Below, piece by piece: positions 1,699 through 33,000 of a stretch of DNA of 33,130 bases. The position numbers and the translations under genes were made by a program. Each line of letters starts with the position of its first letter. Position 1 is the first letter of the stretch. The DNA is taken from NCBI GenBank assembly GCA_012517325.1, contig JAAYVF010000121.1, positions 1-33,130 on the forward strand, in the 5' to 3' direction. The notes beneath the pieces were generated by a model. It worked only from the letters and a program-made list of their open reading frames with translations, was not told the DNA's origin and searched no databases. The stretch comes from Myxococcales bacterium (GTDB lineage Bacteria; Lernaellota; Lernaellaia; Lernaellales; Lernaellaceae).

Positions 1699-2928
1699 TT
1701 ATTTAATTAATTTGGTCAACCAATTTTTTACACTGCGACTCACTTTTCCGGTCAGCGGCGCCTCGGCCTTGGCGAGCCGGGACATGCCTTGCTCGCGCGC
1801 CGCCAGCAGCACCAGGCCGACGCCCGCCGCGTACATCGGGCTGGCCACCACGTCGACCAGGCCGCCGACGTGCCGCGGCTGCCCCACCCGGACGTGGCGG
1901 TTGAAAATCGACCCCGCCAGGTCCTCGATGCCGCGCAGGTGGCTGGTGCCCCCGGTCAGCACGACCGACGAGACGTGCCGGTCCAGTTCCTTGCGCAGCA
2001 TTTCGTTGTTGACGAACTGCAAAATCTCGGCGACCCGCGCCTCGATGATCTCGCAGACCTCGCGGTGGTCGACGATGACCGTCTCGCCGTCGTCGGGCGA
2101 CTCGACCTCGATCTCCTCGCCGGCCATCACCTCGCCGGGAATGCAGTGGCCGTAACGCTTTTTTAGCCATTCGGCCTTGGCCGTGGTCAGATGCAGGCAG
2201 CGCGCCAGGTCGTTGTTGACCTGCAAGCCGCCGAAGCTCAGCACGGCGGTGTACTTGACGGCGTCGTTCTTGAACACGACCAGATCGGTGGTGCCGCCGC
2301 CCAGGTCGATCAGCGCCACGCCCAGCTCGCGCTCCTCGGGGTTGAGCACCGCCTCGGCGCTGGCCAGGGGCGAGAGGATGACGTCCTCGATTTCCAGCCC
2401 GCTCTGGTGGCAGCACTGGACGAGGTTGCCAACGCTGGCCGACTGGATGGTGACGATGTAGCAGTTGACCTCGAGCCGCATGCCGCGCATGCCGGACGGG
2501 TCCTTGATGCCGTTGAGGTTGTCCAGGATGTATTCCTGCGGCAGCACATGCAGCACTTCCGAGTCCTGCGGGATGGCGACCGACTCGGCGGCCTCGACGA
2601 CGCGCTCGATTTCCTCGATCCCCACGTTGCGGCCCCGCAGCGGCAGCATGCCCTGGCTGGTGAAGCCTTTGACGTTGGCGTTGGCGACGCTGATGTAGGC
2701 CGAGCGGATATTGACCTGCGCCATTTTTTCGGCTTCCTCGATCGCCTTGGTGATCGCCGCGACGGTCTTTTCGACATCCACCACCACGCCCTTGCTGAGG
2801 CCATCAGACGGATGGGTGCCCAGGCCGATGACCTCCACCCCGTTTTCGCGCTGGGCGGCGACCACGGCGCACACCTTGGACGTGCCGATATCGAGCCCGA
2901 CGATCAGCGAACCCGGTTTCCGTTTCAT
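1699..2928 (-). CDS. ftsA: Cell division protein FtsA
   Basis: FtsA is an actin-fold ATPase that tethers FtsZ filaments to the inner membrane and recruits later division proteins. The phosphate-1 motif GLDIGTSKVCAVV is at residues 11-23, the phosphate-2 motif LIDLGGGTTDLVVF lies near the middle, and the adenosine motif VVLTGGTSHLRGI follows. The last residues (SRSVKNWLTKLIK) form the expected amphipathic membrane-targeting helix. The length of 409 residues is typical. The ATG overlaps the ftsQ stop by four bases (ATGA), suggesting translational coupling. The last codons and the gap to ftsZ form a 20-base stretch of pure A/T, unusual here. Confidence 0.97.
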   Translation of the reverse strand: MKRKPGSLIVGLDIGTSKVCAVVAAQRENGVEVIGLGTHPSDGLSKGVVVDVEKTVAAITKAIEEAEKMAQVNIRSAYISVANANVKGFTSQGMLPLRGRNVGIEEIERVVEAAESVAIPQDSEVLHVLPQEYILDNLNGIKDPSGMRGMRLEVNCYIVTIQSASVGNLVQCCHQSGLEIEDVILSPLASAEAVLNPEERELGVALIDLGGGTTDLVVFKNDAVKYTAVLSFGGLQVNNDLARCLHLTTAKAEWLKKRYGHCIPGEVMAGEEIEVESPDDGETVIVDHREVCEIIEARVAEILQFVNNEMLRKELDRHVSSVVLTGGTSHLRGIEDLAGSIFNRHVRVGQPRHVGGLVDVVASPMYAAGVGLVLLAAREQGMSRLAKAEAPLTGKVSRSVKNWLTKLIK

Positions 2929-3785
2929 GCGTTGTTGCCTTTCCGCAAACCGCGCACCGCGACGCGATCACCGACGCCCAGATCCACGACTCGGGCTTCC
3001 GCCTGCAGCCGCCCGTTCAAGGCCGCCGCCACGGCCGCCAAACGCTTCAACTTGTTCTCGTAATCGCCGTACCCGAAATGCACGAGCATCCCTTTCTCCA
3101 TTGTCACCAAACTGAACCCGCCCACCGGGTCGTAGCGGATTTCGCTGATCTCCGCCTCGGAAAAAACCGCCAGCCGCTCGCTGAGCAACAGTAATTGCAC
3201 GGCCTCGCCGAGCTTGGTCGCCTGCCGCCGCGCCGTCTGGCCGCCGTCCTGAAACGCCTCCTTCGCAAACCCGGTCAGCAAGGGCAGATCGCGCGGATCG
3301 CCCTCGTCGAGCTGCTTGAAGGCGACGCCGTCGGCGTCCACCAAGTACAGCCGCTCCATCTGCAACAGCGCCACGGCCTGACGCTCGGCGATCTCCACCA
3401 CCAGGGTGTCGGGCAATTCGCGCCGCACCACCGCGCCCTTGATCCAGGGATGCGACACCACCTGGTTCGCCACGTCCGTCAGGTTGACCGAGAAGATGTT
3501 CTGCCCCGGCCGCGCGTGGATGAAGGAGAGGAAATCGCTCTTGGACACATGCACGGCGGACGAAACCCGGATGTCCGCGAGGCGGAAGTAGTCGGCGTGA
3601 TGCAGGCGATACCAGATCACCCCGACCAACAGCACGAACAACACGGCCGGCCAACCGCGCCAAACAACGCGCCCGGCCCACCGGCCGGCATTGCGGCAAC
3701 GCGCGAAGGTCATTTTTCCCCAGCCGCGGACATCGCGGCGGCGCGCGTTGCGTTTCACTTGCACGTTGATGGACCGGCTCGCCAA
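2925..3785 (-). CDS. ftsQ: Cell division protein FtsQ/DivIB
   Basis: FtsQ is a bitopic inner-membrane protein that links early and late divisome proteins through FtsB and FtsL. The N-terminus is strongly basic and cytoplasmic, one transmembrane helix spans about residues 45-62 (PAVLFVLLVGVIWY), and a POTRA domain follows (IRVSSAVHVSKSDF, then NIFSVNLTDVANQV). The beta domain after it contains the family-typical LPDTLVVEIAERQAVAL and YLVDADGVAF. The start is a TTG at 3785, preceded by AAGGAG; that ribosome site shares bases with the TAA stop of ddl. No nearby ATG would keep the N-terminal region. It overlaps ftsA by four bases. Confidence 0.92.
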   Translation of the reverse strand: MASRSINVQVKRNARRRDVRGWGKMTFARCRNAGRWAGRVVWRGWPAVLFVLLVGVIWYRLHHADYFRLADIRVSSAVHVSKSDFLSFIHARPGQNIFSVNLTDVANQVVSHPWIKGAVVRRELPDTLVVEIAERQAVALLQMERLYLVDADGVAFKQLDEGDPRDLPLLTGFAKEAFQDGGQTARRQATKLGEAVQLLLLSERLAVFSEAEISEIRYDPVGGFSLVTMEKGMLVHFGYGDYENKLKRLAAVAAALNGRLQAEARVVDLGVGDRVAVRGLRKGNNA

Positions 3786-3798
3786 CTTTTGGCTCTCC

Positions 3799-4749
3799 TT
3801 ACGACCCGACCTTCAGCCGGGCGGTCGCGAGCACCATTTCGACCAGTTCGCCCATGCTCAGACCGCGCCAGTCGCGCGCGATCATCGGCACCAGCGACAG
3901 TTCGGTCATGCCGGGCAGCGTATTGACCTCCAGCAGCCAGGGGCGATTTTGCGCGTCGAGCAGGAAATCCACGCGCACGATGCCCTCGCCGCCGATCGCC
4001 TCGTTGGCGGCCACCGCGATGGTCTGGACGCGGGTGACGACGGTGTCGTCGAGGTTGTCGGGGTGCGTGATGTATTCGGTCATGCCCTTGGTGTATTTGT
4101 GGTGGTAATCGTAAAACGAGATTTTTTCGTCGGGTAGTTTTTTCGGCCGGATTTCGGCGAGGCCCAACGCCTCGGCGCCCAGCACCGCCACCGACAACTC
4201 GCGGCCGGCGATGTATTTTTCCAATATGATCCGGTCGTCCCACTGGAAAGCGGCCGCGAGAGCCGCGGCGAATTCCTCCGGATCGCTGGCGATCGAAACG
4301 CCGACGCTGGAACCCTCCGTCGCCGGCTTGACCACCACCGGGAATCCGTAGGGCGGCGTCTGCGGCGGCGTGCTCTCGTATTCCACGCGGTCGACCAGGC
4401 TGTACGGCGGCACGGGCAGGCCGATCGACTCGAACAGCTTTTTGCTGATCACCTTGTCCATACCGGCCGCCGAGGCGGTGACGCCCGAGCCGGTGTACGG
4501 CAGGCGCAGCAGTTCGAGCAGGCCCTGCACGCAGCCGTCCTCGCCCCACTTGCCGTGCAGCGCGTTGTACACCACCTCGACACCCGCCGCGCGCAGCTTC
4601 GCCGGCGTTTCCGCGTCGAGATCCAACTCGACCACGTCGTAACCGCGGCCGCGCAAGGCGGCGGCGACCGCCTGCCCCGAGCGCAACGAAACCTCGCGTT
4701 CCGAACTCGGCCCGCCCAACAACACCCCGACCCGTTTACCCTTGTACAT
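3799..4749 (-). CDS. ddl: D-alanine--D-alanine ligase
   Basis: Ddl is a cytoplasmic ATP-grasp enzyme that joins two D-alanines into the dipeptide added by MurF. The N-terminal domain opens with VGVLLGGPSSEREVSL. The ATP-grasp core shows GFPVVVKPATEGSSVGV around residue 135 and ends with WLLEVNTLPGMTELSLVP, whose Glu and Asn bind magnesium. The C-terminal SLVPMIARDWRGLS is typical. The length is 316 residues, near the family norm. It overlaps murB by 14 bases upstream and is followed after 13 bases by ftsQ, the common murB-ddl-ftsQ order. The sequence does not separate DdlA from DdlB; position in the dcw cluster suggests DdlB. Confidence 0.95.
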   Translation of the reverse strand: MYKGKRVGVLLGGPSSEREVSLRSGQAVAAALRGRGYDVVELDLDAETPAKLRAAGVEVVYNALHGKWGEDGCVQGLLELLRLPYTGSGVTASAAGMDKVISKKLFESIGLPVPPYSLVDRVEYESTPPQTPPYGFPVVVKPATEGSSVGVSIASDPEEFAAALAAAFQWDDRIILEKYIAGRELSVAVLGAEALGLAEIRPKKLPDEKISFYDYHHKYTKGMTEYITHPDNLDDTVVTRVQTIAVAANEAIGGEGIVRVDFLLDAQNRPWLLEVNTLPGMTELSLVPMIARDWRGLSMGELVEMVLATARLKVGS

Positions 4750-5671
4750 CGCGCTCTCCCAGAATTTTCACCTCGGGATCGAGCCAGATCCCGAACCGGT
4801 CGTAGACGGTTTGGCGCACGTGCTCGATCAGCGCCAGAATGTCGGCCGCCTTGGCCTGTCCCACGTTCACCAGGAAATTGGCGTGCTTTTCGCTGACGCG
4901 CGCGCCGCCGATCTGAAAGCCTTTCAAGCCGGCCGCCTCGATGAGCCGGCCCGCGTGATCGTTTTCCGGATTCTTGAAAGTCGAACCGCCGCTCGGCAGA
5001 TCCCACGGGTGGCGGGAATGGCGGCTGGCGATGATCGCGTCGACCTCGGCCCGGATTTTCGCCGCCTCGCCGCGCCGCAGTTCGAGTTTGGCCTCGGTGA
5101 CGACGAACGAACCGTCGAGCACCAGGCCGCGATAGCGATAGACCAGCTTGTCACGCGGCACCCGGCGGATTTTGCCGTCGGCGTCGACCACGGTGATCTC
5201 CCGCAGCACCTGGCTGAAATCGCCCAGGTAGGTGCCGGCGTTCATGCGGATGCCGCCGCCGATCGTCCCGGGCACGCCGGAAATGAATTGCAGGCCGTCG
5301 ATCCCCGCGGCGGCGCTGCGATCCACGACCGTCTGGGACAGCAGGGCGGCGCCGACCGTCAGCACGACCTCGCCGCCGTCGCGGAATTCCGGCTCGAATT
5401 TTTCGAAGCCCTGCCGCATCAGCAAGGTGACGCCGCGCAGGCCGCCGTCCAGGATGAGCAGATTGGAGCACGCGCCGAAGACGCGGAACGTTTCGTTCTC
5501 GGCGGTGCAAAGCCGGACGACCTCGGCGATTTCCTCGGCCGTGACGGGGCGCAACAGGCAATCCGCCGGTCCGCCCACCTGCCAGGTGGTCAGCGGCGCC
5601 ATCGGCACGCCGAACGCGCAACGCTCACCGAACAATTCCGCCAATCGCGTATGGAGTCTGGATCCGGTCAC
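4736..5671 (-). CDS. murB: UDP-N-acetylenolpyruvoylglucosamine reductase MurB
   Basis: MurB reduces UDP-GlcNAc-enolpyruvate to UDP-MurNAc using FAD and NADPH. The FAD domain is recognisable from WQVGGPADCLLRP, the glycine-rich SGVPGTIGGGIRMNAG, and YRYRG. The segment SGGSTFKNPENDHAGRLIE, with the proton-donating Ser, and HANFLVN mark a type II MurB, lacking the tyrosine loop of the E. coli enzyme. It ends with the usual LDPEVKILGE. The start is a GTG that overlaps the murC stop (GTGA), with 311 residues in total. Confidence 0.95.
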   Translation of the reverse strand: MTGSRLHTRLAELFGERCAFGVPMAPLTTWQVGGPADCLLRPVTAEEIAEVVRLCTAENETFRVFGACSNLLILDGGLRGVTLLMRQGFEKFEPEFRDGGEVVLTVGAALLSQTVVDRSAAAGIDGLQFISGVPGTIGGGIRMNAGTYLGDFSQVLREITVVDADGKIRRVPRDKLVYRYRGLVLDGSFVVTEAKLELRRGEAAKIRAEVDAIIASRHSRHPWDLPSGGSTFKNPENDHAGRLIEAAGLKGFQIGGARVSEKHANFLVNVGQAKAADILALIEHVRQTVYDRFGIWLDPEVKILGERDVQG

Positions 5672-7053
5672 GCAAATTTTTCCTTTAATTTCTCGACCAG
5701 TTTCACCGCCAGATGGTTCAAATCGCCGGCCCCCATGGTGATGACCATGTCGCCGGGCCGCGCGTTCTCGTACAGGGTTCGCAGCAATTCGTTCCGATCG
5801 GCGATGTAAGTCACGTCCGGATGACCGTAGGCGCGGATGCCGTCCACCAGTTTTTGCGCCGTCACGCCTTCGATCGGCGTTTCGGAAGCGGCGTAGATAT
5901 CGGTGACCAGCAGTTTGTCCGCTTCGCCGAAGGTCGAGAGAAATTCGTCGAACATGTCCCGCGTCCGCGTGTAGCGGTGCGGTTGAAAGGCCACCAACAG
6001 CCGCCGGCCGAACCCGGCGCGCGCCGCCGCCAGCGTCGCCCGGATTTCGGTGGGGTGATGGCCGTAGTCGTCGATGACCCAGATGTCGTTCACCTCGCCG
6101 ACGCGCTGAAAGCGCCGCCGCACGCCCGTGAACTCGCCCAGGGCCCGGCGCACCGTCTCCGCCGGCACGTTCAGTTCATGGGTGACGGCGAGCACCGCTA
6201 GGGCGTTTTGCACCATGTGCTTGCCGGGCAGCGGCAGCCGGTAACGGCCCAGTTCGCCCAGTTTGTGATGGTGCGCGGTGAAGCTGGTGGCGAAGCCGTC
6301 GGGCCTGATGTCGGTGGCGCGGAATTCCGCCTCCGGCGACAGGCCGTAGGTGATCAAACGTTTGCGCACCGAGGGCAACAGCGAGCGGACCGCGTCATCG
6401 TCGACGCACAGCACGGCCGCGCCGTAGAACGGCACCTTGTTGATGAACGTCAGAAACGTCCGCTTGAGCTGCTCGAGGCCGGAGTAATAATCGAGGTGTT
6501 CCAGGTCGACGTTGGTCACCACGGCCACGGTCGGGTTGAGCAACAGGAAACTGCCGTCCGATTCGTCGGCCTCGGTGACGAAGGTCTCGCCGGCGCCCAG
6601 CTTGGCGTTGCTGCCGATCGCGTCCACCCGGCCGCCGACGACGACGGTCGGATCGAACCCGGCCGCGCCCAGCACCGTGGCCAGCAGGCTGGTGGTCGTG
6701 GTCTTGCCGTGGCTGCCGGCGACCGCGATGCCGTAGCGCTTCATCCGCATCAGTTCGGCGAGCATCTCGGCGCGCGGGATGACGGGGATTTTGGCCGATT
6801 TGGCGGCGATGATCTCCGGGTTGCTGGGGCGGATGGCGCTCGAGGTCACGACCACGTCGGCGTCGGCGACGAACTGGGCGGCGTGGCCGGTATGGATCGT
6901 CGCGCCCAGTTCGGCGAGGTGCGCGAGGATTTCGTTGTCCTTCAGGTCGGACCCGGAAACCCGAAAGCCCAGGTTCAACAGGATTTCGGCGATGCCGGAC
7001 ATCCCGATGCCGCCGATCCCCACCAAATGGATGTGTTCGGTCGAACCTAACAT
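5668..7053 (-). CDS. murC: UDP-N-acetylmuramate--L-alanine ligase MurC
   Basis: MurC adds L-alanine to UDP-MurNAc, the first step of stem-peptide assembly. The N-terminal Rossmann-like domain begins IHLVGIGGIGMSGIAEIL. The ATP loop is AGSHGKTTTTSLLATVL near residue 110. TNVDLEHLDYYSG contributes the central-domain magnesium site, and DDYGHHPTEI is the MurC-specific C-terminal motif. The length of 461 residues is normal. The ATG lies inside the last codons of ftsW (seven-base overlap). murG usually sits between ftsW and murC, and here it cannot. Confidence 0.97.
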   Translation of the reverse strand: MLGSTEHIHLVGIGGIGMSGIAEILLNLGFRVSGSDLKDNEILAHLAELGATIHTGHAAQFVADADVVVTSSAIRPSNPEIIAAKSAKIPVIPRAEMLAELMRMKRYGIAVAGSHGKTTTTSLLATVLGAAGFDPTVVVGGRVDAIGSNAKLGAGETFVTEADESDGSFLLLNPTVAVVTNVDLEHLDYYSGLEQLKRTFLTFINKVPFYGAAVLCVDDDAVRSLLPSVRKRLITYGLSPEAEFRATDIRPDGFATSFTAHHHKLGELGRYRLPLPGKHMVQNALAVLAVTHELNVPAETVRRALGEFTGVRRRFQRVGEVNDIWVIDDYGHHPTEIRATLAAARAGFGRRLLVAFQPHRYTRTRDMFDEFLSTFGEADKLLVTDIYAASETPIEGVTAQKLVDGIRAYGHPDVTYIADRNELLRTLYENARPGDMVITMGAGDLNHLAVKLVEKLKEKFA

Positions 7054-8231
7054 GTGATTCCCTCTTCCGACTCGGCCGGGAGTTCCCGCCGTTGGAGCAA
7101 GTGCAAAACTTTCGGTTTGCTCGTCGCGTCCACCGGAGCCTGGCGCGCCGCGGCGAGGATCACGCCGATCAAGGCGAAATTGAGCAGGGTGTTCGAGCCG
7201 CCGTAGGAAAAGAACGGCAGCGACAAGCCCTTGTTGGGCAGCAGCGACATCACCACGGCGGCGTTGATGAGGACCTGCATGCCGATCAGCAACGCGGCGC
7301 CCAGGCCGCACAGCCGCACGAACAGGTCGGTGGCGCGCAGACACAGGCGGATCGAGCGCCAGATCAGGAAGAAGAACAGCAGGAAGGCCAGCAGCAGGCC
7401 GAGCAGGCCCATCTCTTCGCCCAGGTTGGCCAGGATGAAGTCGGTGTGCATTTCCGGCACGAAATAGAATTTCTGCCAGCCGTTGCCGATGCCCACACCC
7501 GTCAGGCCGCCGCGGCCGATGGCGATCTGCGCCTGCCAGGTCTGCCAGTTGACGCCGAGCGGATCGCGGGACGGATCCAGAAAGCCCAGCAGCCGCTTGA
7601 CGCGCCACGGGGCCATCACGATCTGCGAGGCGATGAACAGCGCGCCGCCGACAAAGCCCAGCCCGATGACGCGCCACTGGGCGCCGCCGATGAACAGCAT
7701 CAGAATCATCAGCGCCGCGATGACCGCCGCCGCGCCCAGGTCGGGCTCGATGGCGATCAGGCCGATGAACGGCATCGCGATCCCCACCAGCGGCACCACG
7801 CCGCGCCAAAAGCGGCGAATGCCCTCGCCCTGCGCGGCCAGGTAATGCGCGAAGAACAGGATCATCGTCGCCTTCGCCAGTTCCGACGGCTGCAAGTGCA
7901 CCGGGAGGTTGATCCAGCGATGGGCGCCCTTGGCCGGCGCGGCGAAGGGCGGAATGAAGGTGAGGATCAGCAGGACGAAAACGACCGCCATGATCGCGCC
8001 GATTACCTTGCTGTTGTCGAGTCGCCGGAGGTCGGCGCCGCTGAGCAGCAGCATCAGCGCCATGCCGAGCATCAGGTGCATGGCCTGTTTCTTAAAATAC
8101 AGCAGCGGTTGTTCGGTCAACGGCTGGCTGACGCTGTAGACCATCAGCAGCCCGAAGGCCGACAACAACAGCACCAGCAGGACCAAATACCGGTCCAGGC
8201 CGCGCCGCTGGTAAACGATCTCGTTGCTCAC
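7047..8231 (-). CDS. ftsW: Peptidoglycan glycosyltransferase FtsW (SEDS family)
   Basis: FtsW is the septal SEDS-family glycosyltransferase that polymerises lipid II together with FtsI. About ten transmembrane helices can be read. The first follows YQRRGLDRYLVLLVLLLSAFG. SEDS landmarks include KGAHRWINLPVHLQPSELAK, the long extracellular loop near the helix-7 region with GIGNGWQKF and PEMHTDFILANLGEEMG, and the closing GLSLPFFSYGGSN. The length is 394 residues. I place the start at a GTG overlapping the murD stop; upstream extension in this frame is antisense-like, high-GC sequence covered by murD. FtsW rather than RodA is supported by the cluster. Confidence 0.94.
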   Translation of the reverse strand: MSNEIVYQRRGLDRYLVLLVLLLSAFGLLMVYSVSQPLTEQPLLYFKKQAMHLMLGMALMLLLSGADLRRLDNSKVIGAIMAVVFVLLILTFIPPFAAPAKGAHRWINLPVHLQPSELAKATMILFFAHYLAAQGEGIRRFWRGVVPLVGIAMPFIGLIAIEPDLGAAAVIAALMILMLFIGGAQWRVIGLGFVGGALFIASQIVMAPWRVKRLLGFLDPSRDPLGVNWQTWQAQIAIGRGGLTGVGIGNGWQKFYFVPEMHTDFILANLGEEMGLLGLLLAFLLFFFLIWRSIRLCLRATDLFVRLCGLGAALLIGMQVLINAAVVMSLLPNKGLSLPFFSYGGSNTLLNFALIGVILAAARQAPVDATSKPKVLHLLQRRELPAESEEGITC

Positions 8232-9556
8232 AACCGCTCCACCCACTGCCGCATGGCCTCGCCACGCTCCTCGAAATTGGCGAACTGGTCGAAACTGGCG
8301 CAGCCCGGCGAGAGCAGCACCGCCTCGCCCGGCCGCGCCGCCGCGCGCGCCTGCGCCAAGGCCTCGGCGAAGGGGCCGACGATCCGGATCGGGATTTCCG
8401 CCAGGCCGGCTGCGATCCGCGCCGCCGCTTCGCCGTAAGCGAATACCAGCCGCGCCCGCGAGACGACATCGACGCTGATCGTCGACCAGTCGCCGCCCTT
8501 GTCGCGCCCGCCGAGAATCAGGATCACGGGCCGGTTCATCGCCCGCAGGCTTGTGCGCACCGCGCCGGGCGTGGTCGCCTTGGAATCGTTGACGTACAAC
8601 ACGCCGCTGATTTCGGCGAGCGTTTCCAGGCGATGCGCCAGGCCGCGAAACGTTTCGATCGTTTGTTGAATCGCCGCCGGCGAAGCGCCCGCCAGCCGTG
8701 CCATCAGCGCCGCCGCCGCCAGGTTCTCCCGGTTGTGCTTGCCGGGCGGCAGGTACTTCGCCGCGTCGTAGGTCTCCGGCGCGCCGTCCAACCGCAGGTG
8801 CAGAACATCGCCCGCGAACCACGCGTTGGAATCGCGGCCGCCGAAGGTGAACAAGCGGCTGCGTACGGCGAATGACTGTTCCATCACGCCCGCGTCATCC
8901 GCGTTGAGCACCGCCGCGTCGGTGGGCCATTGCCGGGCGAACAGGCGCCGCTTGGCCGCGACGTAGTCGTCGTGCGAGGCGTAACGGTCCTGGTGGTCGG
9001 GCGCCAGATTCAGCAGGGCGGCGACCGAGGGCCGCAGTTCCACGATCGTTTCCAACTGGAAGCTCGACAATTCCACGACGGCGATTTCCGGCGGGACCTC
9101 GGCGAGCAGCGCCTCGGCCAGCGGCGTGCCGAGATTGCCGCCGACGAAAGTCCGCCGGCCGTCGGCGATCAGCATTTCGCCCACCAGCGCGGTGGTCGTG
9201 GACTTACCCTTGGTGCCGGTGATGCCGATCACCGGCGCCGCCAGCAGGCGGAACGCCAGTTCGACCTCGCCGATGATTTCGACGCCGCGCTCGCGTGCCT
9301 GTTGAAAAATCGGCAAGGCCAGCGGCACGCCCGGGCTGCTGACGATGAGATCGGCCCAGGCGAACAGGGTTGCGGAGTGGCCGCCCAACTCACTCGTTTC
9401 CAGCAGCGGCGCCAACTCGCGAACCGCCGCGCGCTGTTTCTCGCCGTCGCGCGCGTCGCTGACCGCCACCTTGGCGCCGTGCCGGCGGGTCAGGCGAGCC
9501 GCCGCCACGCCGCTTTTCCCGAGGCCCGCGATCAACACCTTGCGACCCGCCAGCAT
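8228..9556 (-). CDS. murD: UDP-N-acetylmuramoylalanine--D-glutamate ligase MurD
   Basis: MurD adds D-glutamate to UDP-MurNAc-L-Ala in the cytoplasm. The N-terminal nucleotide-sugar domain opens with KVLIAGLGKSGVAAARL. The ATP loop is GITGTKGKSTTTALVGEML near residue 115. NLAPDHQDRYASHDDYVAAK carries the central-domain His and the carbamylated Lys, and YVNDSKATTPGAVR is the MurD-specific motif. The ATG at 9556 overlaps the murF stop by one base (TGATG); a GTG one codon earlier is the alternative. Its direct junction with murF leaves no room for mraY. Confidence 0.96.
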   Translation of the reverse strand: MLAGRKVLIAGLGKSGVAAARLTRRHGAKVAVSDARDGEKQRAAVRELAPLLETSELGGHSATLFAWADLIVSSPGVPLALPIFQQARERGVEIIGEVELAFRLLAAPVIGITGTKGKSTTTALVGEMLIADGRRTFVGGNLGTPLAEALLAEVPPEIAVVELSSFQLETIVELRPSVAALLNLAPDHQDRYASHDDYVAAKRRLFARQWPTDAAVLNADDAGVMEQSFAVRSRLFTFGGRDSNAWFAGDVLHLRLDGAPETYDAAKYLPPGKHNRENLAAAALMARLAGASPAAIQQTIETFRGLAHRLETLAEISGVLYVNDSKATTPGAVRTSLRAMNRPVILILGGRDKGGDWSTISVDVVSRARLVFAYGEAAARIAAGLAEIPIRIVGPFAEALAQARAAARPGEAVLLSPGCASFDQFANFEERGEAMRQWVERL

Positions 9557-10959
9557 CACAGCGCTTCCCCTTTCAAACCGCGCACCACGCGTTCCATCCG
9601 CATGCCGCGACTACCCTTGACCAGAATGACATCGCCGCGCCGGCCGGTCCGCCGCAGTTCGTCGACGATCGCAGCGTGATCGCCGGCCAGCACGATCCGT
9701 TGCGGATCCATCTTTTCCTCGCGCGCGCCCGCGGCCACGAGCGGCGACATTTCGCCCAGCAAGAACAGCCGGTCCAGCCCGATCTTTGCCGCGTGACGGC
9801 CGAGCCGCCGGTGCGCGGCCTCGGCCTCGGGGCCGAGTTCGAACATGTCGCCGAGCACCGCGATCTTGCGCCCCTCGCCCGCCAGTTCGTCGAGCGCCGC
9901 GAGCGCCGCGTCCATGCTGCGCGGATTGGCGTTGTAGCAGTCGTCGATCACCGTGATGCCGAAAATGTTGAGCACCCGGCTGCGCATGGCGGGTGGCCGG
10001 AACTGTTCCAGCCCGCGGACGATCGCCTCGAGCGGAACGCCGAACGCGTGGCCGGCGGCGGCCGCCGCCAAGGCGTTGCCGACGTTGTGGCGGCCGAACG
10101 TCGCCAGGTAAACGTCGGCCCGGCGGCCGGCGATTTCCATCGTCACCGCGATGCCCTCGAAGCCCTTGGGCTCGACGGCCAGCGCCTTCACCTCGGCCGG
10201 GCCGTCGGCGGCCAGCGAGAAGTAGATCGTGCGGAAGGGCTTGCCCGCGCCCATCGAGGCGACCCGCGGGTCGTCGGCGTTGAGCACCGCGATGTGGCCG
10301 GCGCCGAAATTTTCCAGCAGCTCGCCCTTGGCCTGGGCGACCGCGCCGATCGTCTTGAGGTGTTCGAGGTGCACCGCGCTGACGTTGGTGATCACGCCGA
10401 TCGTCGGCCGGGCGATTTCGGCCAGGCGCCGGATTTCGCCGCGCAGGCTCATGCCCATTTCGAGCAGCACCACCTCGTGTTCGGGCTGGATCTTGAGCAC
10501 CGACAACGGTAGGCCGATCAGGTTGTTGAAGTTGCCTTCGTTGCGCAACACCTTGCCGGGACGGGCCGCCTGCAGCACCTCGAACAACATTTCCTTGGTC
10601 GTGGTCTTACCGGTCGAACCGGTCACCGCCAGCACCGGCAACCGCCGCTCGGCCAGGGTGCCGCGCGCCAGTTCGCCCAGGGCGTACAGCGTGTCCTCCA
10701 CCCGGATCACCGCTACGCCGGGCCGCGCCGGCGGCGCGATTTCCTCATCGACCACCAGGCCGGCGGCGCCCTGGGCGACCGCGGTTTCCAGGAAGCGGTG
10801 GCCGTTGAAATTCGGCCCCTTCAGGGCGATGAAACATTCGCCGGGCCGCAGCGCGCGCGTATCGGTGGTGACGCCGGTGAAGGCGATCTCCGGCGATCCG
10901 GCCGCCAACCGGCCGCCGCTCAGCCGCGCCACGCTTCCCGCCTGTAACAATTCGTTCAT
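9556..10959 (-). CDS. murF: UDP-N-acetylmuramoyl-tripeptide--D-alanyl-D-alanine ligase MurF
   Basis: MurF adds D-Ala-D-Ala to the UDP-MurNAc tripeptide, completing the soluble precursor. The N-terminal domain contains TGVTTDTRALRPGECFIALKG, diagnostic of MurE and MurF. The ATP loop is VTGSTGKTTTKEMLFEVL near residue 112. The MurF-type segments NEGNFNNLIGLPLSVL and VIDDCYNANPRSMDAAL are present. The length of 467 residues is typical. It starts four bases after the murE stop, and its stop overlaps the murD start. Confidence 0.96.
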   Translation of the reverse strand: MNELLQAGSVARLSGGRLAAGSPEIAFTGVTTDTRALRPGECFIALKGPNFNGHRFLETAVAQGAAGLVVDEEIAPPARPGVAVIRVEDTLYALGELARGTLAERRLPVLAVTGSTGKTTTKEMLFEVLQAARPGKVLRNEGNFNNLIGLPLSVLKIQPEHEVVLLEMGMSLRGEIRRLAEIARPTIGVITNVSAVHLEHLKTIGAVAQAKGELLENFGAGHIAVLNADDPRVASMGAGKPFRTIYFSLAADGPAEVKALAVEPKGFEGIAVTMEIAGRRADVYLATFGRHNVGNALAAAAAGHAFGVPLEAIVRGLEQFRPPAMRSRVLNIFGITVIDDCYNANPRSMDAALAALDELAGEGRKIAVLGDMFELGPEAEAAHRRLGRHAAKIGLDRLFLLGEMSPLVAAGAREEKMDPQRIVLAGDHAAIVDELRRTGRRGDVILVKGSRGMRMERVVRGLKGEAL

Positions 10960-10963
10960 CCGG

Positions 10964-12475
10964 CTATGCCTTCAAGCGGGCGGCCAGTGCCGCCGCCGCG
11001 ACCTCGCGGTCGTCGAAGTGAATCCGCGCGGAGCCGATGATCTGGTAATCCTCGTGGCCCTTGCCGGCGATCAGCACCACGTCGCCCGGCCGCGCGGCCC
11101 GCACCACCAATTGAATCGCCTTGGCCCGGTCGGGTTCGACCGCATAAACCGGCCCGTTGTTCCAGCCGGCGACCTCAGAGGGCTCGATCCGCCGCCGCCC
11201 CATTCTTTCCACACCGGGCAGAATCTGCTCGATGATCGCCTGCGGCGTTTCGGTGCGCGGGTTGTCGCTGGTCACCAGGGTCAGATCGGCCTGCTGCGCC
11301 ACCGCCGCGCCCATCAGCGGCCGTTTGCCGCGATCGCGATCGCCGCCGCACCCGAAGACCACCAGCAGCCGGCCGCGCGCCAGCCGCCGCATGGTCGAAC
11401 CGACGTTCGCCAGCGCGTCGGGCGTGTGGGCGTAGTCGACCAACACCAGAAAGTCCTGGTGCCCGACGGGTTCCAGGCGGCCGGGAATGTGCCGGCATTT
11501 GGCCAACCCGGCCCGGACCAGCTCACCGTCGATCCGCAGGCCCAGGCAGACCGCGGCCGCCGCCAGGATGTTCATCGCCTGAAAATCGCCGAGCAGCGGG
11601 CAGCCGATTTCCAGTTCCCGATCGCCGTATTGCAGGCGCCCGCGGATTCCGTCGAAATCGCAAATCACCTCGCGCCAGTAAACCTGCCCTTCGCCGCCGA
11701 AACCGACCGTCGGCACGGGCGTCGCCTTGCGGATGGTCAGGCCGGCGGGATCCTCCAGGTTGACCGCCGCGAACACGCGGGGTTTGACCGAAGCCGACAC
11801 CGGCAAAATCTCGTCGAACAGGCGCTTTTTCGCCGCCAGGTAGGCGTCCAGTTCCCCGTGGAAGTCCAGGTGGTCCCGCGAGAGGTTGGTGAACACGCCC
11901 ACGTCGAATTGACAACCGGTGACCCGGCGAAGTTGCAAGGCATGGCTACTGACTTCCATGACGACCGTATCCACGCCCTTGGCCTTCATTTCGAGCAGGG
12001 TTTGCACCAATTCCGGCGCTTCCGGGGTGGTGAAGCGGTTGGGCGTGACGATGCCGTCGTAGTGGGTGTTGACCGTGCCGATGACGCCGACCTCGCGGCC
12101 CTGTTCGCGCAGGATGGCCTCGAGCAGGTACGTTACCGAGGTTTTGCCGTTGGTGCCGGTCACGCCGATCAGCGTCAGGTCGGCGGTCGGATCGCCGGCC
12201 AGCCGGTGCGCGGCGACGGCGGCGAAACGGCGCGCGTCGGCGACCCGCACCAGGGGGACGCCGCGAGTGTCGATGTCATCCTCGGCGGCGATGGCGACGG
12301 CGCCGGCGGCCAGCGCCTGGGGAACGAATTTGGCGCCGTCGGTCTGCTGGCCGCGAATGGCGACGAACAGATCGCCCGGTTGCACCTGACGGGAATCGAC
12401 GAGCGCCCGCCGCACCTCGACGTCCTGGTTGGCGGCGGCCCACGGCAAATCGGCAATCAGTTGGCTCAGCAGCAT
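10964..12475 (-). CDS. murE: UDP-MurNAc-L-alanyl-D-glutamate--2,6-diaminopimelate ligase MurE
   Basis: MurE adds the third residue of the stem peptide. The ATP loop is GVTGTNGKTSVTYLL (glycine 107 to threonine 112). The substrate loop TTPEAPELVQTL and the central motif EVSSHALQLRRV are present, with the carbamylated Lys in YLAAKKRLF near 216. The motif DNPR at residues 404-407 is the known determinant for meso-diaminopimelate; lysine-adding enzymes lack it. This is the best evidence in the window for the peptidoglycan chemotype. The gene begins 12 bases after ftsI, with GAGAGG ahead of the ATG. Confidence 0.96.
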   Translation of the reverse strand: MLLSQLIADLPWAAANQDVEVRRALVDSRQVQPGDLFVAIRGQQTDGAKFVPQALAAGAVAIAAEDDIDTRGVPLVRVADARRFAAVAAHRLAGDPTADLTLIGVTGTNGKTSVTYLLEAILREQGREVGVIGTVNTHYDGIVTPNRFTTPEAPELVQTLLEMKAKGVDTVVMEVSSHALQLRRVTGCQFDVGVFTNLSRDHLDFHGELDAYLAAKKRLFDEILPVSASVKPRVFAAVNLEDPAGLTIRKATPVPTVGFGGEGQVYWREVICDFDGIRGRLQYGDRELEIGCPLLGDFQAMNILAAAAVCLGLRIDGELVRAGLAKCRHIPGRLEPVGHQDFLVLVDYAHTPDALANVGSTMRRLARGRLLVVFGCGGDRDRGKRPLMGAAVAQQADLTLVTSDNPRTETPQAIIEQILPGVERMGRRRIEPSEVAGWNNGPVYAVEPDRAKAIQLVVRAARPGDVVLIAGKGHEDYQIIGSARIHFDDREVAAAALAARLKA

Positions 12476-12487
12476 CTTGTCCCTCTC

Positions 12488-14563
12488 TCAACCCTGCGGT
12501 GAAAATTCGACCGTGACCTGTCGCGGTTCGGTCAGCCGGGCGCCGGGCGCCGGATCCTGACGCACCGCGACTCCCGAGCCTTGCAGCGACACGTTCAATT
12601 TGAGCTGATCCGCCAATTTGCGGGCCATGCGCATCGACAGGCCCAGAAAATTCGGCATCACGTCCTCTTCCGTCGTCACCAGCACCGGGTCGTCATCCAC
12701 TTCCGCGTCGAGGCGGCGCGTGGCGTGGCTTTCGAGCACGGCGGCCAGCTTGTTCTCTTCCTTCTGTCGCGCGGCGAACACGCCCAAGTAATCGAGCGAG
12801 CGCACCGCGATTTCGCGGAAGGCCGGTGCCGCGACGATGCCACCGTAGCCGGTGCCCGCGGGCTCGTCGACCACCACGATGATCCCCAACCGCGGGTCCT
12901 CGCCGGGCACCAGGCCGACGAAACTGCCGACGCGCTTGGTCGGGTGATATTTACCGGTCCGCGGGTCCACCTTGTAGGCGGTGCCGGTCTTGCCCGCCAC
13001 CAGAAAATCCTTCAGCGCCGCCTGCGTACCTGTGCCGCCTTCCTGCGTGACCAGCGTCATCATCTGCACCACTTCACGGGCGACTTTCTCGCTCAACACC
13101 CGCCGCACAATCTGCGGATTGTTGCGCTGGATCACCGTGCCGTCCGCCGCGATCACTTCCGACACCAGGTAAGGCTTCATCAGGCGGCCGCCGTTGCCGA
13201 GGGTCGCCATGGCGTTGAGCAACTGAATGGAAGTGACGCTGATGCCCTGGCCGTAACCCTGGGTGGCCAGGTCGATCGGATACCAGGTTTCGTAGTTGCG
13301 CATCTGACCCGTGGTTTCCACCGAAAAGTCGACGCCGGTCCGCTGGCCGAAACCGAAATTCCGGAACCCTTGAAACATGCCTTTGTTGCCGACGCGCAGG
13401 GCGAGCTTGGCGGCGCCGATATTCGAGCTGACGCGAATGATTTCCGCCGGGGTCAGCGCGCCGTGCGCATGCGTATCGTGAATGATGTGGCCGCCGAACG
13501 ACCACGACCCGCCCTGGCAGTCGATTTTCTCGTCGAGGCGGACCTTGCCGTCTTCCAACGCGATCGCCACGGTGATCGGTTTCATCGTCGAACCGGGCTC
13601 GTACATGTCCAGCGTCGGGTGATTGCGCCGGTCGAAGGGCTGGGAACGGCCCGCCTGCTCGGGTAGGAACGACGGGCGATTGGCCATGGCCAGGATTTCG
13701 CCGGTGCGCACGTCCATGACCAGCGCCCAGGTCGCCGCCGGGTGGTGCTTTTCCACCACGCCGTCCAGCGCCGTCTCGGCGAACCATTGGATTTTCGAAT
13801 CCAGCGTCAGGCGCAGGGTACGGCCGTCCTGGCGGCCGACGGTGCGCACGCCCTCGGTATAAAAAGTCTGCCCCTTGGCGTCCTTCATGGCCGCGATGTG
13901 GCCCGGCTCGCCGGCCAGGGTCTTATCGAATTTTTGTTCCAGCCCTTCCAGGCCCAGCAGGTCGATGTTGGTGAAGCCGAGCACGGCGGCCGCCATGCCG
14001 GCGAACGGATAGCGGCGCTCGGATTCCTTGATCCGACCGACGCCGAGCAACAGTTTGGGATCGGTCTTGTCGAGCACCGCGATCTGTTCCGGCGGCACCT
14101 TGCGTTTGATCCATTCGTAGCGGCGGCTGCTTTGCAATTTCTGCAGGACGGTGGCTTCGTCCAGTTTCAGGATCGTGGCGAGGAGATGCGCGGTTTCCGG
14201 CGGCGTTTTGACGAATTTCGGATCGACGAAAATCGAGTCGGTATCGATGGTGATGGCCAGGCGTTCGCCGTTGCGGTCGATGATTTCGCCGCGCGGCTTG
14301 GCCAGCTCGATCGCGGTGTTGTGGCGGATTTCCGCTTCCTTGGTCAGATCGTCGTGGCAAAAGACGGTGAGATAGACGGCCCGGGTCGTCAGCGCCAGAA
14401 AGCCGATCACGAAAATCAGGAAAACGAGGGAAACCCGCAGGCGGCGCATTTCCTCGAAATCGGCCGAGGCGCTGGCGACGACCGGCCGGGCCTGCCAGGA
14501 ACGGACAAACGCCGGGTGCCGTTGCCGGTAGCGGTTGCGGATGTCGAGGCTAACGGGTCTCAC
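12488..14563 (-). CDS. ftsI: Septal peptidoglycan transpeptidase FtsI (PBP3) with PASTA domain
   Basis: FtsI is a class B penicillin-binding protein that cross-links septal peptidoglycan with FtsW. One transmembrane helix spans about residues 43-60. The PBP dimerisation domain follows (AKPRGEIIDRNGERLA at 88-103). The three transpeptidase motifs are STMK with catalytic Ser325, SSN at 379-381, and KTGT at 525-528. Residues from about 630 form one PASTA domain (MPNFLGLSMRMARKLADQ and RQDPAPGARL), absent from E. coli FtsI but common in Gram-positive and deltaproteobacterial homologues. The start is a GTG 14 bases inside ftsL. The length is 691 residues. Confidence 0.95.
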   Translation of the reverse strand: MRPVSLDIRNRYRQRHPAFVRSWQARPVVASASADFEEMRRLRVSLVFLIFVIGFLALTTRAVYLTVFCHDDLTKEAEIRHNTAIELAKPRGEIIDRNGERLAITIDTDSIFVDPKFVKTPPETAHLLATILKLDEATVLQKLQSSRRYEWIKRKVPPEQIAVLDKTDPKLLLGVGRIKESERRYPFAGMAAAVLGFTNIDLLGLEGLEQKFDKTLAGEPGHIAAMKDAKGQTFYTEGVRTVGRQDGRTLRLTLDSKIQWFAETALDGVVEKHHPAATWALVMDVRTGEILAMANRPSFLPEQAGRSQPFDRRNHPTLDMYEPGSTMKPITVAIALEDGKVRLDEKIDCQGGSWSFGGHIIHDTHAHGALTPAEIIRVSSNIGAAKLALRVGNKGMFQGFRNFGFGQRTGVDFSVETTGQMRNYETWYPIDLATQGYGQGISVTSIQLLNAMATLGNGGRLMKPYLVSEVIAADGTVIQRNNPQIVRRVLSEKVAREVVQMMTLVTQEGGTGTQAALKDFLVAGKTGTAYKVDPRTGKYHPTKRVGSFVGLVPGEDPRLGIIVVVDEPAGTGYGGIVAAPAFREIAVRSLDYLGVFAARQKEENKLAAVLESHATRRLDAEVDDDPVLVTTEEDVMPNFLGLSMRMARKLADQLKLNVSLQGSGVAVRQDPAPGARLTEPRQVTVEFSPQG

Positions 14564-29907: not shown

Positions 29908-29936
29908 TTGTTTCGCCGGACCGGGTCGGAAATAAT
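29908..29936 (+). promoter_or_regulatory. Predicted promoter of the citrate synthase operon
   Basis: TTGTTT (29908-29913) and AATAAT (29931-29936) are 17 bases apart; both boxes match the consensus at four or more positions. The start point would be about 80 bases before the citrate synthase ATG. No terminator separates it from the lipoprotein gene, so read-through is possible. Confidence 0.35.
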
Positions 29937-30022
29937 TGGTTCCTTCGGCTCGTGCAACGAAACCAACATCAATTAAACCGGCGCGCCGCGACGAAGGCCG
30001 TCGCCGTGCCTGGAGGTGGCCC

Positions 30023-31195
30023 ATGACCAATCCTCAGGTTCCGCCCCCCGACGGTTCCGAATACCGACCCGGTTTGGAAGGCGTCGTCGCGTCCCGTTCC
30101 AGCATTTCTTACGTGGACGGCGAAAACGGCGTCCTCGAGTATCGCGGCATCGACATCCGCGAGCTCACGGCCCACAGCACCTTCGAGGAAACCACCTTCC
30201 TGCTGTTGTACAACCACCTGCCCGACCACCGGGAACTGGCGCAGTTCACCACGCTGATGGCCCGGCAGCGCGTGCTGCCGCACGCCGTGCGCGAGGCGAT
30301 CCACAACTTCCCGGTGAGCATGCATCCGATGGTGGCGCTGCAGGCCGGCATCGCGATGCTGGCGGGCGACGATTACTTCGCCGACGAAATCGGCACCCAG
30401 CGCAACAACATCAAGCGTTGCTCGTCGGTCGTCGCCAAGGTGCCCTCGCTTGTCGCGGCCTTCGAACGCCACCGCAACGGCGAGGAGCCGATGCCGGCGC
30501 AATCGAAATACAGCCATGCCGAAAACTTCCTGTTCATGATGACCGGCGTCCAACCCCACCCGGAAGCGGCGCGGGTGTTCGACAAACTGCTGATCATGCA
30601 CGCCGACCATTCGACCAACGCCTCGACCTTCACCTGCCGGGTCATCGGGTCGACGCTGGGCAACATCTATTCGTCGATCTCGGGCGCGGTCGGCGCGCTC
30701 AGCGGGCCGTTGCACGGCGGGGCCAACGAGCGCGTGCTGCGCATGCTCTACAGCATCGGTTCGCCGGACAACGTCGAGGCGTTCGTCGATGAGCAGATCG
30801 CCACCGGCAACAAGATCATGGGCATCGGGCACCGGATCTACAAAACCAAGGATCCGCGCGCCGAATTGCTGCAGGAAGTGATCCCCCGGCTGTTGGAAAT
30901 CCAGGGCGGCGAGGAAAAACAAACGTTGTACCAGACCGCGTTGCGCCTCGAGGAAGTCGTCAACCAGCGTCTGGGACAGAAGAAGCTCTATCCGAACGTC
31001 GATTTCTATTCGGGCATCGTGCTGGAAATCCTCGGCGTGCCGTCCGACCTGTTCACCACCGTGTTCGCCTTGTCCCGCGTCGCCGGCTGGTGCGCGCATT
31101 GGGTCGAGCAGGTTTCGGCCAACCGGATTTTCCGGCCGAAGCAGGAATACATCGGCGATCATCACCGGCCCTACGTGCCGATGGAGCGTCGCTGA
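30023..31195 (+). CDS. gltA: Citrate synthase
   Basis: Citrate synthase condenses oxaloacetate and acetyl-CoA, the entry step of the TCA cycle. The protein opens with GLEGVVASRSSISYVDGENGVLEYRGIDI. The catalytic residues are visible: His in MHADHSTNAST, His in GPLHGGANE, and Asp in NVDFYSG. GHRIYKTKDPRA is the CoA-binding loop. At 390 residues it has the size of the short bacterial type rather than the longer, NADH-regulated E. coli type. I start at the ATG at 30023 with GGAGG six bases ahead; a longer frame exists from 29936 but would read through the leader. Isocitrate dehydrogenase follows after one base. Confidence 0.96.
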   Translation: MTNPQVPPPDGSEYRPGLEGVVASRSSISYVDGENGVLEYRGIDIRELTAHSTFEETTFLLLYNHLPDHRELAQFTTLMARQRVLPHAVREAIHNFPVSMHPMVALQAGIAMLAGDDYFADEIGTQRNNIKRCSSVVAKVPSLVAAFERHRNGEEPMPAQSKYSHAENFLFMMTGVQPHPEAARVFDKLLIMHADHSTNASTFTCRVIGSTLGNIYSSISGAVGALSGPLHGGANERVLRMLYSIGSPDNVEAFVDEQIATGNKIMGIGHRIYKTKDPRAELLQEVIPRLLEIQGGEEKQTLYQTALRLEEVVNQRLGQKKLYPNVDFYSGIVLEILGVPSDLFTTVFALSRVAGWCAHWVEQVSANRIFRPKQEYIGDHHRPYVPMERR

Positions 31196-31196
31196 A

Positions 31197-32459
31197 ATGA
31201 CCCCGCGCTTCGCTAAGCTCACGCCGCCCGCCGGTGAGGCGATCGCCTACGGTCCGGCCGGCATTCGGGTGCCGACGCGGCCGATCGTGCCGTTCATCCG
31301 CGGCGACGGCATCGGCCCGGAAATCTGGGAAGCAACCCGGGCGGCGGTCGAGGCCGCCGTCGCGCAAGCATACGGCGACGGACGCGCGCTGGTCTGGTTC
31401 GAGGTCTATGCCGGCGCGGCGGCCGCCGCGGTTTACGGCCCGAACGTCGTTCTGCCCGACGACTCCCTCGCCGCGATCCGGCACTACAAGGCGGCGATCA
31501 AGGGCCCGGTGGAAACGCCGGTCGGCGGCGGCATCCGGTCGGTCAACGTCGCGCTGCGGCAGGCGCTGGATTTGTACGCCAACGTGCGGCCGGTGCGGTA
31601 TCTGCCCGGCTTGCCCTCGCCGCTCAAGGCGCCGGAAAAAGTGGACCTGGTGATCTTTCGCGAAAACACCGAGGACGTGTACGCGGGCATCGAATGGGCC
31701 GCCGGCTCGCCCGAGGCGCAGGCGCTCATCGCCCACCTGAATCAACACTACCTGGCCGGCCGCGAACCGCTGTCGCCGGAGGCCGCGATCGGCCTCAAGC
31801 CGATGACCCGCCGCGCCTGCGAACGCCTCGTCCGCCGCGCCGTGGCCTTCGCCCTGGCCGCCGGGTATCCGTCGGTCACCCTGGTGCACAAGGGCAACAT
31901 CATGAAATTCACCGAGGGCGGGTTCGTGGAATGGGGTTACGAACTGGCCCGCGCGGAATTCGGCGAACGCACCCTCACCCGCGCCGAACTGACCGGCGCT
32001 TTGCCCTCCGGCAAGGTGCTGATCAAGGACCGGATCGCCGACGCGATGTTCCAGGACCTGATCCTGCACCCCGAGGAACACGCGGTCGTCGCCACGACCA
32101 ACCTCAACGGCGATTACCTGTCCGACGCCGCCGCCGCGCTGGTCGGCGGGCTCGGCTTCGCCGCCGGCGCGAACCTCGGCGACGAACTGGCGGTGTTCGA
32201 GGCGGTGCACGGCACGGCGCCCGACCTGGCCTGCCGCGACGTGGCCAATCCCAGCTCGCTCATCCTGACGGCTTACGAATTGCTGCGGCACCTGGGTTGG
32301 ACGGAGGCGGCGGAACTGCTGCTTGGCGCTTTACGGACGGTCATCGGCAAGGGCTGGGTGACGGCGGACGTCGCCTGCTGGTTGCCGAACGTGGTGCCGT
32401 TGTCCTGTTCGGAATTCGCGGCGTCGGTCGTCGAGGAGATTCGCGCCGCGGGCGCCTGA
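31197..32459 (+). CDS. icd: Isocitrate dehydrogenase, predicted NAD-dependent
   Basis: The enzyme oxidises isocitrate to 2-oxoglutarate and CO2. It aligns closely with E. coli Icd: SVNVALRQALDLY with the substrate-binding Ser, RENTEDVYAGIEW, HKGNIMKFTEGGF, LIKDRIADAMFQ, TTNLNGDYLSDA and FEAVHGTAPD. The residues that set coenzyme choice differ: Asp343, Leu344, Ala350, Ala390 and Cys394 replace the E. coli Lys344, Tyr345, Val351, Tyr391 and Arg395 that bind the NADP phosphate. The Asp and Ala are those known for NAD-dependent relatives. The length of 420 residues is normal. It forms an operon with citrate synthase and ends 11 bases before the convergent gene. Confidence 0.94.
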   Translation: MTPRFAKLTPPAGEAIAYGPAGIRVPTRPIVPFIRGDGIGPEIWEATRAAVEAAVAQAYGDGRALVWFEVYAGAAAAAVYGPNVVLPDDSLAAIRHYKAAIKGPVETPVGGGIRSVNVALRQALDLYANVRPVRYLPGLPSPLKAPEKVDLVIFRENTEDVYAGIEWAAGSPEAQALIAHLNQHYLAGREPLSPEAAIGLKPMTRRACERLVRRAVAFALAAGYPSVTLVHKGNIMKFTEGGFVEWGYELARAEFGERTLTRAELTGALPSGKVLIKDRIADAMFQDLILHPEEHAVVATTNLNGDYLSDAAAALVGGLGFAAGANLGDELAVFEAVHGTAPDLACRDVANPSSLILTAYELLRHLGWTEAAELLLGALRTVIGKGWVTADVACWLPNVVPLSCSEFAASVVEEIRAAGA

Positions 32460-32470
32460 ACGCTTTTCGC

Positions 32471-32884
32471 TCAACCGCCTTTTGCGATGAGCGCCTTGGC
32501 CGACGCGCCGGAGAGGTAGAAACCGCGGCGCCGGGTCATCTCTTCCATCCGGGTCTGATCCGGGAAATGCTTGCGAAATTTTTCAAAGATGAAATCGAAC
32601 TCGCTCTCGGGGAAATAACGGGTGACGATGCGGCCCACCTCGCCGATATCGAGGTAGCGGAAGCGGATTTCGATCACCGCCTCGGCCGGTTCCTTGTCGT
32701 GGGTCGGCGCGTAAAATTCCTCGGCCACCCACATCGACAGCCGCGGATCCTTGATGTGCATCTGGTGAACGCGCTCCATCAGGAACCGCCACATCTGAAA
32801 AATCTCCGCCGGAACGTAGCGCGTCTCGCCCGACTTTTTCGGATCTTTCGACAGACTGCACCGGATCATTTCCACCATTTCCAT
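32471..32884 (-). CDS. Hypothetical protein, 137 residues
   Basis: I do not recognise the family. The protein is soluble and mixed-charge, with no signal or transmembrane helix. It contains VPAEIFQMWRFLMERVHQMHI, then an acidic beta-rich segment (AVIEIRFRYLDIGEVGRIV), and ends GFYLSGASAKALIAKGG. The ATG at 32884 is chosen because GGGAG lies seven bases ahead; a longer frame runs to 32950. Codon use resembles the neighbours, with G or C at most third positions. It converges on icd and lies beside the insertion sequence. Confidence 0.7.
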   Translation of the reverse strand: MEMVEMIRCSLSKDPKKSGETRYVPAEIFQMWRFLMERVHQMHIKDPRLSMWVAEEFYAPTHDKEPAEAVIEIRFRYLDIGEVGRIVTRYFPESEFDFIFEKFRKHFPDQTRMEEMTRRRGFYLSGASAKALIAKGG

Positions 32885-33000
32885 TGCGCGTCTCCCTTTT
32901 CCCTTGCCCTGTGCTTTTTTCGCCGCCGCCGGTCTCGCTTCTCGGCGCAAAATAGCAAATTCGTTCCGGTGGCGCTAGATCGGCTTTTTCCGGTGTATTA

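Follow-up and report, generated by a model that had tools for sequence, protein, structure and literature searches.

The window analysed here is a 33,130-nucleotide stretch of DNA, and the gene under study in it is icd (31197..32459, + strand). It encodes a type I isocitrate dehydrogenase (Icd) of 420 amino acids, a member of the E. coli-like homodimeric family with an NAD-type coenzyme pocket, identified by a PF00180 match, a PDB match and a structural model. The open reading frame 31197-32459 (+) is complete, with 420 codons. The citrate synthase gene lies before it (29936..31195, +; PF00285, 430.7 bits) and may actually begin at the ATG at 30023. Its stop codon closes at 31195 and icd opens with the ATG at 31197, which leaves a single base between them, and the two genes are presumably co-transcribed.

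The window belongs to genome G000, an assembly of 5.25 Mb in 134 contigs that is 96.75% complete. G000-G002 form the window's family (f1), and f2 and f3 are the other families of the phylum. The phylum sample comprises seven genomes from one class and three families (f1, three genomes; f2, three; f3, one).

Downstream of icd, a convergent ORF (32471..32950, −) matches no Pfam or NCBIfam family at E 0.001. A relative of this ORF occupies the same place in G002, with 55% identity over 134 amino acids, and none was seen in the G001 stretch. Further away, positions 1702-14563 (−) hold a cell-division and cell-wall cluster recognised by Pfam (FtsA, FtsQ-type, D-Ala-D-Ala ligase, MurB, and Mur ligases), which also encodes an FtsW-type protein and a penicillin-binding protein with a PASTA domain.

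Identity and fold of the window Icd

The window Icd matches PF00180 in the profile search with 268.3 bits over residues 31-408, as a full-length type I Icd does. It scores 494.6 bits against NF005425, an NCBIfam model named NADP-dependent Icd, which is above the cut-off of 490, and 525.8 bits against the NADP equivalog TIGR00183, which is below the cut-off of 567.3. Among PDB sequences, 2d4v, the NAD-dependent enzyme of A. thiooxidans, matches best (458.5 bits). E. coli Icd reaches 436.3 bits in its engineered NAD-specific form 1iso as against 425.8 as wild-type 1ai2, a gain of 10.5. The first-pass annotation called the backbone E. coli-like, and this is loosely right: identical residues occupy 201 of 405 positions aligned to E. 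coli (219 of 403 for 2d4v), but the tree described below puts the window Icd outside the proteobacterial group.

The AlphaFold2 model has a mean pLDDT of 88.2 and a TM-score of about 0.9 (about 0.91) to type I Icd structures. The matching structures include 2d4v and 1iso, and NADP enzymes too. Since the model resembles NAD and NADP enzymes alike, the coenzyme is undecidable from the fold. Ten positions, S113, N115, R119, R129, R153, Y160, K230, D283, D307, and D311 (E. coli numbering), which we take to be the isocitrate and metal ligands of E. coli Icd, are all identical in the window Icd (10/10).

The coenzyme pocket

All five pocket substitutions reported by the first-pass annotation are present in the translation, with the Asp codon opening at 32223 and the Cys codon closing at 32378. 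By translation and alignment, Asp343 and Leu344 (32223..32228, +) correspond to E. coli K344 and Y345, Ala350 (32244..32246, +) to V351, Ala390 (32364..32366, +) to Y391, and Cys394 (32376..32378, +) to R395. The phmmer and MAFFT alignments to E. coli Icd agree that no gap falls between these sites. Two coenzyme-side changes had been overlooked and are evident from the alignment. The sixth change is His291 (32067..32069, +) in place of R292, and the seventh is Glu106 (31512..31514, +) in place of T104. In E. coli, R292 is presumably the residue that reaches the 2'-phosphate from the other subunit. The NADP-type residues Lys344, Tyr345, Tyr391, Arg395, and Arg292 are thus represented by 0 of 5 in the window Icd.

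Asp at the first site and Ala at the third had been likened to E. coli Icd converted to NAD use, and 1iso does carry Asp344 and Ala351. According to PMC5397045, NAD use by the A. thiooxidans, Z. mobilis, and P. furiosus enzymes is determined by D-I-A at the sites of K344, Y345, and V351, where the Asp binds the hydroxyls of the ribose and repels the 2'-phosphate. Set against this pattern for NAD-dependent type I Icds, the window Icd has D, L, and A, with Leu replacing Ile, so that the NAD-type reading of the pocket is well supported. Because the site pattern matches the described determinant, the best reading is that the window Icd would prefer NAD. No kinetic measurement for Leu at the second site together with Ala/Cys at 390/394 was found in the literature searched.

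The NAD-type enzyme as a kind is already known from A. thiooxidans and Z. mobilis, and the window Icd is a further instance. The A. thiooxidans enzyme 2d4v resembles it in fold (type I, TM 0.91), in the Asp and Ala of sites 1 and 3, in having small residues at 391/395, and in Glu at E. coli position 104. In contrast, 2d4v has Ile at site 2 where the window Icd has Leu, Arg at 292, and Gly/Ala instead of Ala/Cys at 391/395. The engineered 1iso is like the window Icd in Asp344, Ala351, and the changed residues at 345/391/395. It has Ile, Lys, and Ser at these last three where the natural enzyme has Leu, Ala, and Cys, and the window Icd is altered at 292 and 104 as well. The NAD-dependent enzymes of Z. 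mobilis and P. furiosus have an Asp-Ile-Ala determinant like that of the window Icd, as reported in PMC5397045.

Partly changed type I pockets can be dual. According to PMC5397045, the dual-specificity Icd of Methylobacillus flagellatus has an altered K-I-A pocket, keeps Lys at site 1, and uses both coenzymes. A window Icd with dual specificity, not NAD specificity, is nevertheless unlikely, since its first site holds Asp and not Lys; in P. furiosus it is the change from Asp to Lys that creates dual use (PMC5397045). All five sites are changed besides, and R292 is lost too. In the survey, Methylotenera L057 has a comparable K-I-A-G-S pocket with Lys kept at site 1, and falls in the proteobacterial group. 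The pocket of the window Icd is better read as NAD-type.

Pocket types among type I Icds

The survey aligned 94 type I Icds, one per row. Besides the window Icd it takes in 80 loci from named genomes, relatives from the phylum, second copies, and two references from the PDB. These 80 loci ranked highest in similarity to the window Icd among at least 590 candidates, so the sample is tilted towards that protein. The pocket is [KR]-Y-x-Y-R in 79 rows, [QH]-Y-V-Y-x in 3, and of another type in 12, including the window Icd. As 79 of 94 rows are canonical, the change of the pocket is not chance variation. All 79 canonical rows have Arg at E. coli position 292, as do 4 of the 12 other-pocket rows. 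Position 104 is T, S, or A in every canonical row (79/79). Glu at this position is confined to 4 of the 12 other-pocket rows (window, 2d4v, L083, and L130), with 0/79 among the canonical ones. The NAD-type Icds of G001 and G002 have Thr at 104, unlike the window Icd with its Glu106.

Loci L083 (G056) and L130 (G025) come from MAGs titled Deltaproteobacteria (Myxococcota in the tree taxonomy). Their pocket is D-I-A-[AP]-P, and they belong to the eight-row group of the window Icd in the tree. Both genomes resemble f1 in having an NAD-type icd behind citrate synthase and a second Icd, here with the canonical K-Y-V-Y-R pocket. Unlike f1, they give no two-part isocitrate lyase match.

A same-strand citrate synthase gene is directly upstream of the NAD-type icd in all five members of the group (window, G001, G002, G056, and G025), and in G025 (L130) it is incomplete, as the end of the locus cuts the gene. 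There are 73 canonical loci among the 80, and 66 of them hold at least 600 bases upstream. A citrate synthase lies upstream on the same strand at one of these 66 (Brevibacillus L066). It is absent upstream at six other non-canonical loci (L015, L045, L057, L058, L064, and L072).

A second Icd in the window's family

The window's genome contains a second type I Icd of 434 amino acids (C124, L008:1483-2787, −) with 55% identity to the window Icd. Its pocket is Q-Y-V-Y-G, in which Gln stands for K344 and Gly for R395. An NADP-like second Icd is present in all three f1 genomes (QYVYG, QYVYR, and HYVYR). G002 pairs an NAD-type D-I-A-A-C enzyme with a Q-Y-V-Y-R one, and G001 pairs D-I-A-A-C with H-Y-V-Y-R, the latter in pieces. 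This Gln/His-type pocket is not among the 80 scanned loci, themselves the best of at least 590. Each of the f2 and f3 genomes has a single type I Icd, with K-Y-V-Y-R in 4 of 4; the G005 copy is split over two frames. Judged by its pocket, the second Icd of f1 probably prefers NADP, with the caveat that Gln/His replaces Lys/Arg and that G000 has Gly for R395 as well.

Two further G000 regions, C124 L008:2921-4180 close to the second Icd and C107 L135:2-3255 close to the shunt genes treated below, contain ORFs with long Asp/Asn runs, which appear lipoprotein-like by eye.

Glyoxylate shunt genes and acetate

The first-pass annotation took the NAD-type pocket to go with a lack of growth on acetate through the glyoxylate shunt, and suggested looking for isocitrate lyase, malate synthase, and aceK. 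Divergent relatives of the first two are present in the window's genome. AceK (PF06315) has no match in any of the seven phylum genomes, and a control search finds E. coli AceK.

The isocitrate lyase relative of G000 is a PF00463 profile match at C107:43410-44549. The lyase query has a match in 3/3 f1 genomes and 0/4 of f2 and f3. When aligned to solved lyases, the f1 lyase keeps KRCGH, NYSSS, and FITLGGQHA; we take the K-[KR]-C-G-H loop, N-x-S-x-S, and Thr to be catalytic or site motifs of isocitrate lyase. It remains below the isocitrate lyase equivalog cut-offs, with 151-157 of 562 bits for PRK15063 (G000, 156.8) and 137.5 of 275.9 bits, and against methylisocitrate lyase models its score is lower (134 of 354.4 bits). 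The f1 lyase would be a divergent isocitrate lyase relative, ICL-like by its residues and of uncertain activity. The NAD-type Icd, the second Icd, and the lyase co-occur in 3/3 f1 genomes, and the NAD-type Icd is found in the same three phylum genomes as the lyase.

A malate synthase A relative is present in two of the three f1 genomes (G000 and G002), directly upstream of the lyase. The order malate synthase, lyase, and aldo/keto reductase is common to these two genomes, which represent two genera. It extends over G000:C107:42279-44549 (L003, L135) and lies on C21 of G002 (L132:3850-7678), with short lyases of 380-387 amino acids. In G001 the contig ends beside the lyase (C290:15500-16534 of 16535), so the gene upstream of it would fall outside the assembled sequence. 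The malate synthase relative of G002, aligned to 3cux, keeps an Arg, a Glu, and two Asp, presumably the catalytic residues of malate synthase, and scores 313.2 of 594.5 bits (TIGR01344). It appears divergent, and its activity is not certain; this relative and the lyase are both called divergent because their scores are far below curated equivalog cut-offs.

Partial matches to PF01274, the malate synthase barrel, are flagged over the Pfam cut-off of 26.4 in 3 of the 4 f2 and f3 genomes: G006 with 41.6 bits, G003 with 33.6, and G004 with 21.8, or 41.6 with its neighbours. G005 has none. The G006 and G003 matches, scanned against all of Pfam, fit HpcH/HpaI aldolase or DUF6986 better and were rejected as malate synthases.

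Acetyl-CoA synthetase (TIGR02188) is above the cut-off in 5 of 7 phylum genomes, including G000 and G002, and acetate activation therefore does not separate the families. The 2-oxoglutarate dehydrogenase E1 component (PF16870) gives no match in f1 (0/3) or f3 (0/1), and is matched in f2 (3/3). Another enzyme may take the step after 2-oxoglutarate in f1.

The notion that an NAD-type Icd marks an organism with neither a glyoxylate shunt nor growth on acetate follows a published correlation (PMC5909895, PMC4360740, and PMC10574006). The wider sample leans the same way. Of the 80 loci, 50 had their genomes searched for a lyase: all 7 non-canonical ones and 43 others. A two-part ICL match occurs in 0/8 genomes with a non-canonical type I Icd as against 7/42 canonical-only genomes, numbers too small for a claim. 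Partial ICL-family matches (6/50 genomes, about 138-254 positions of the 526-position profile) were excluded as lyases, four of the six having been compared with the f1 lyase, and the pocket classes leave out second Icd-like matches of about 80-220 bits. For the window's family, however, the corollary fails against the gene content. The lyase relative is present in 3/3 f1 genomes, the malate synthase A relative in 2/3, acetyl-CoA synthetase over the cut-off in G000 and G002, and an NADP-like second Icd in 3/3. An f1 organism that lacks both the shunt and growth on acetate is accordingly a quite improbable reading. Every lyase genome, whether by two-part match (7/50) or in the phylum sample (3/7), has one or more Icds in which 345 and 391 are both Tyr. 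An NAD-type Icd that stands beside shunt genes agrees better with these genomes.

Leucine pathway

LeuB (3-isopropylmalate dehydrogenase) is an NAD enzyme of the same fold. A LeuB-like match is found in 0/3 f1 genomes versus one in each of the four f2 and f3 genomes. For the latter genes the best NCBIfam model is 3-isopropylmalate dehydrogenase. Three of the four score above its cut-off, and the other was scanned as a fragment. This NCBIfam scan took in 4 LeuB-like and 6 aconitase-family loci, and its f1 loci were those of G000 and G002. That the window gene stands in for the missing LeuB in f1 is extremely improbable and was rejected: the checked isocitrate-binding residues are all kept, with SVNVALR fitting the isocitrate motif S-x-N-x-x-x-R, the gene sits behind citrate synthase, and there is one aconitase-family gene per f1 genome (AcnA in G000 and G002), so that LeuC looks missing too. 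With LeuB and LeuC both apparently absent, the pathway would be gone and not patched, and leucine synthesis looks lost in f1.

Phylogeny and origin of the pair

A phylogeny of type I Icds had likewise been suggested by the first-pass annotation. The first tree has 94 rows, was made with a quick method, and includes the pocket columns. It places the f1 NAD-type Icds, L083+L130, the f1 second Icds, and a Bipolaricaulota row with the pocket D-I-A-G-R together, with a weak support of 82. The second tree, which is preferred, has 53 rows chosen by hand from the 94, was made with a careful method, and excludes the pocket columns. In it the f1 NAD-type Icds, L083+L130, and the f1 second Icds form a group of eight rows with support 95/87, and the Bipolaricaulota row is outside that group. 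The pockets of A. thiooxidans, Ignatzschineria (D-I-V-A-R), Methylophilaceae, and BMS3Bbin13 are among proteobacterial Icds, and the window Icd is outside the proteobacterial group. Since 2d4v lies within that group on the tree, its pocket looks separately derived.

The second tree requires at least six changes between NADP-like pockets, Gln/His types included, and other pockets. The AU tests reject none of the groupings f1 NAD-type with L083+L130 (p 0.449), f1 NAD-type with f1 second Icds (p 0.488), and f1 second Icds with the f2 and f3 Icds (p 0.305), so that several orders of gain are compatible with the data. Tentatively, the NAD-type Icd lineage may have been duplicated or acquired with the gain of the shunt in f1, after which one copy could have re-evolved NADP use via Gln/His at 344 with Tyr345 and Tyr391, to give a split between NADH and NADPH at isocitrate without AceK. 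We regard this history as rather unlikely. If true, the NAD-to-NADP 'ancient adaptation' tied to isocitrate lyase would have been replayed in nature a second time, independently.

Proposed role of the window Icd

From residues, profile scores, and gene order, we put at about 75% the probability that the window gene encodes a catalytically intact, NAD-using type I Icd, expressed with citrate synthase, in a genome that also has an NADP-like second Icd and a pair of lyase and malate synthase. Asp343 would form hydrogen bonds with both hydroxyls (2' and 3') on the adenosine ribose and repel NADP through its 2'-phosphate, and Leu344, Ala350, Ala390, Cys394, and His291 would occupy the places of the residues that hold the 2'-phosphate. 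Together with citrate synthase, the window Icd would run the oxidative branch as far as 2-oxoglutarate and yield NADH.

Isocitrate would have three possible consumers: the NAD-type Icd, yielding NADH; the second Icd, probably yielding NADPH; and the lyase, giving net C4 from C2 units. The second Icd may supply NADPH while the lyase and malate synthase assimilate C2 units. Without AceK, the split of isocitrate would be set by expression and affinities. We infer the NAD specificity, the NADPH from the second Icd, the activities of lyase and malate synthase, and the division of labour.

Significance

The link between the coenzyme choice of Icd and the glyoxylate shunt is a classic example of molecular adaptation, and the f1 setting would be a natural pair of NAD-type and NADP-like isozymes beside the shunt. 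For Pseudomonas W6, PMC5397045 cites a pairing of NAD and NADP isozymes. A pair of type I NAD and NADP Icds beside a glyoxylate shunt was not found in the open-licence literature, which is no claim of absence.

The acceptance of the window Icd by NF005425 (494.6 vs 490) means that automatic annotation probably gives it the wrong coenzyme, which would mislead metabolic models. In f1, one genome combines both pocket types of a single subfamily and the shunt genes, with no detectable AceK, whereas the sister families have one canonical Icd and no lyase match. The genomic setting of the window Icd runs against the metabolic inference that an NAD-type enzyme means no growth on acetate, and the comparison of f1 with its sister families offers a natural contrast in which the rule that links coenzyme and shunt may be tested enzyme by enzyme.
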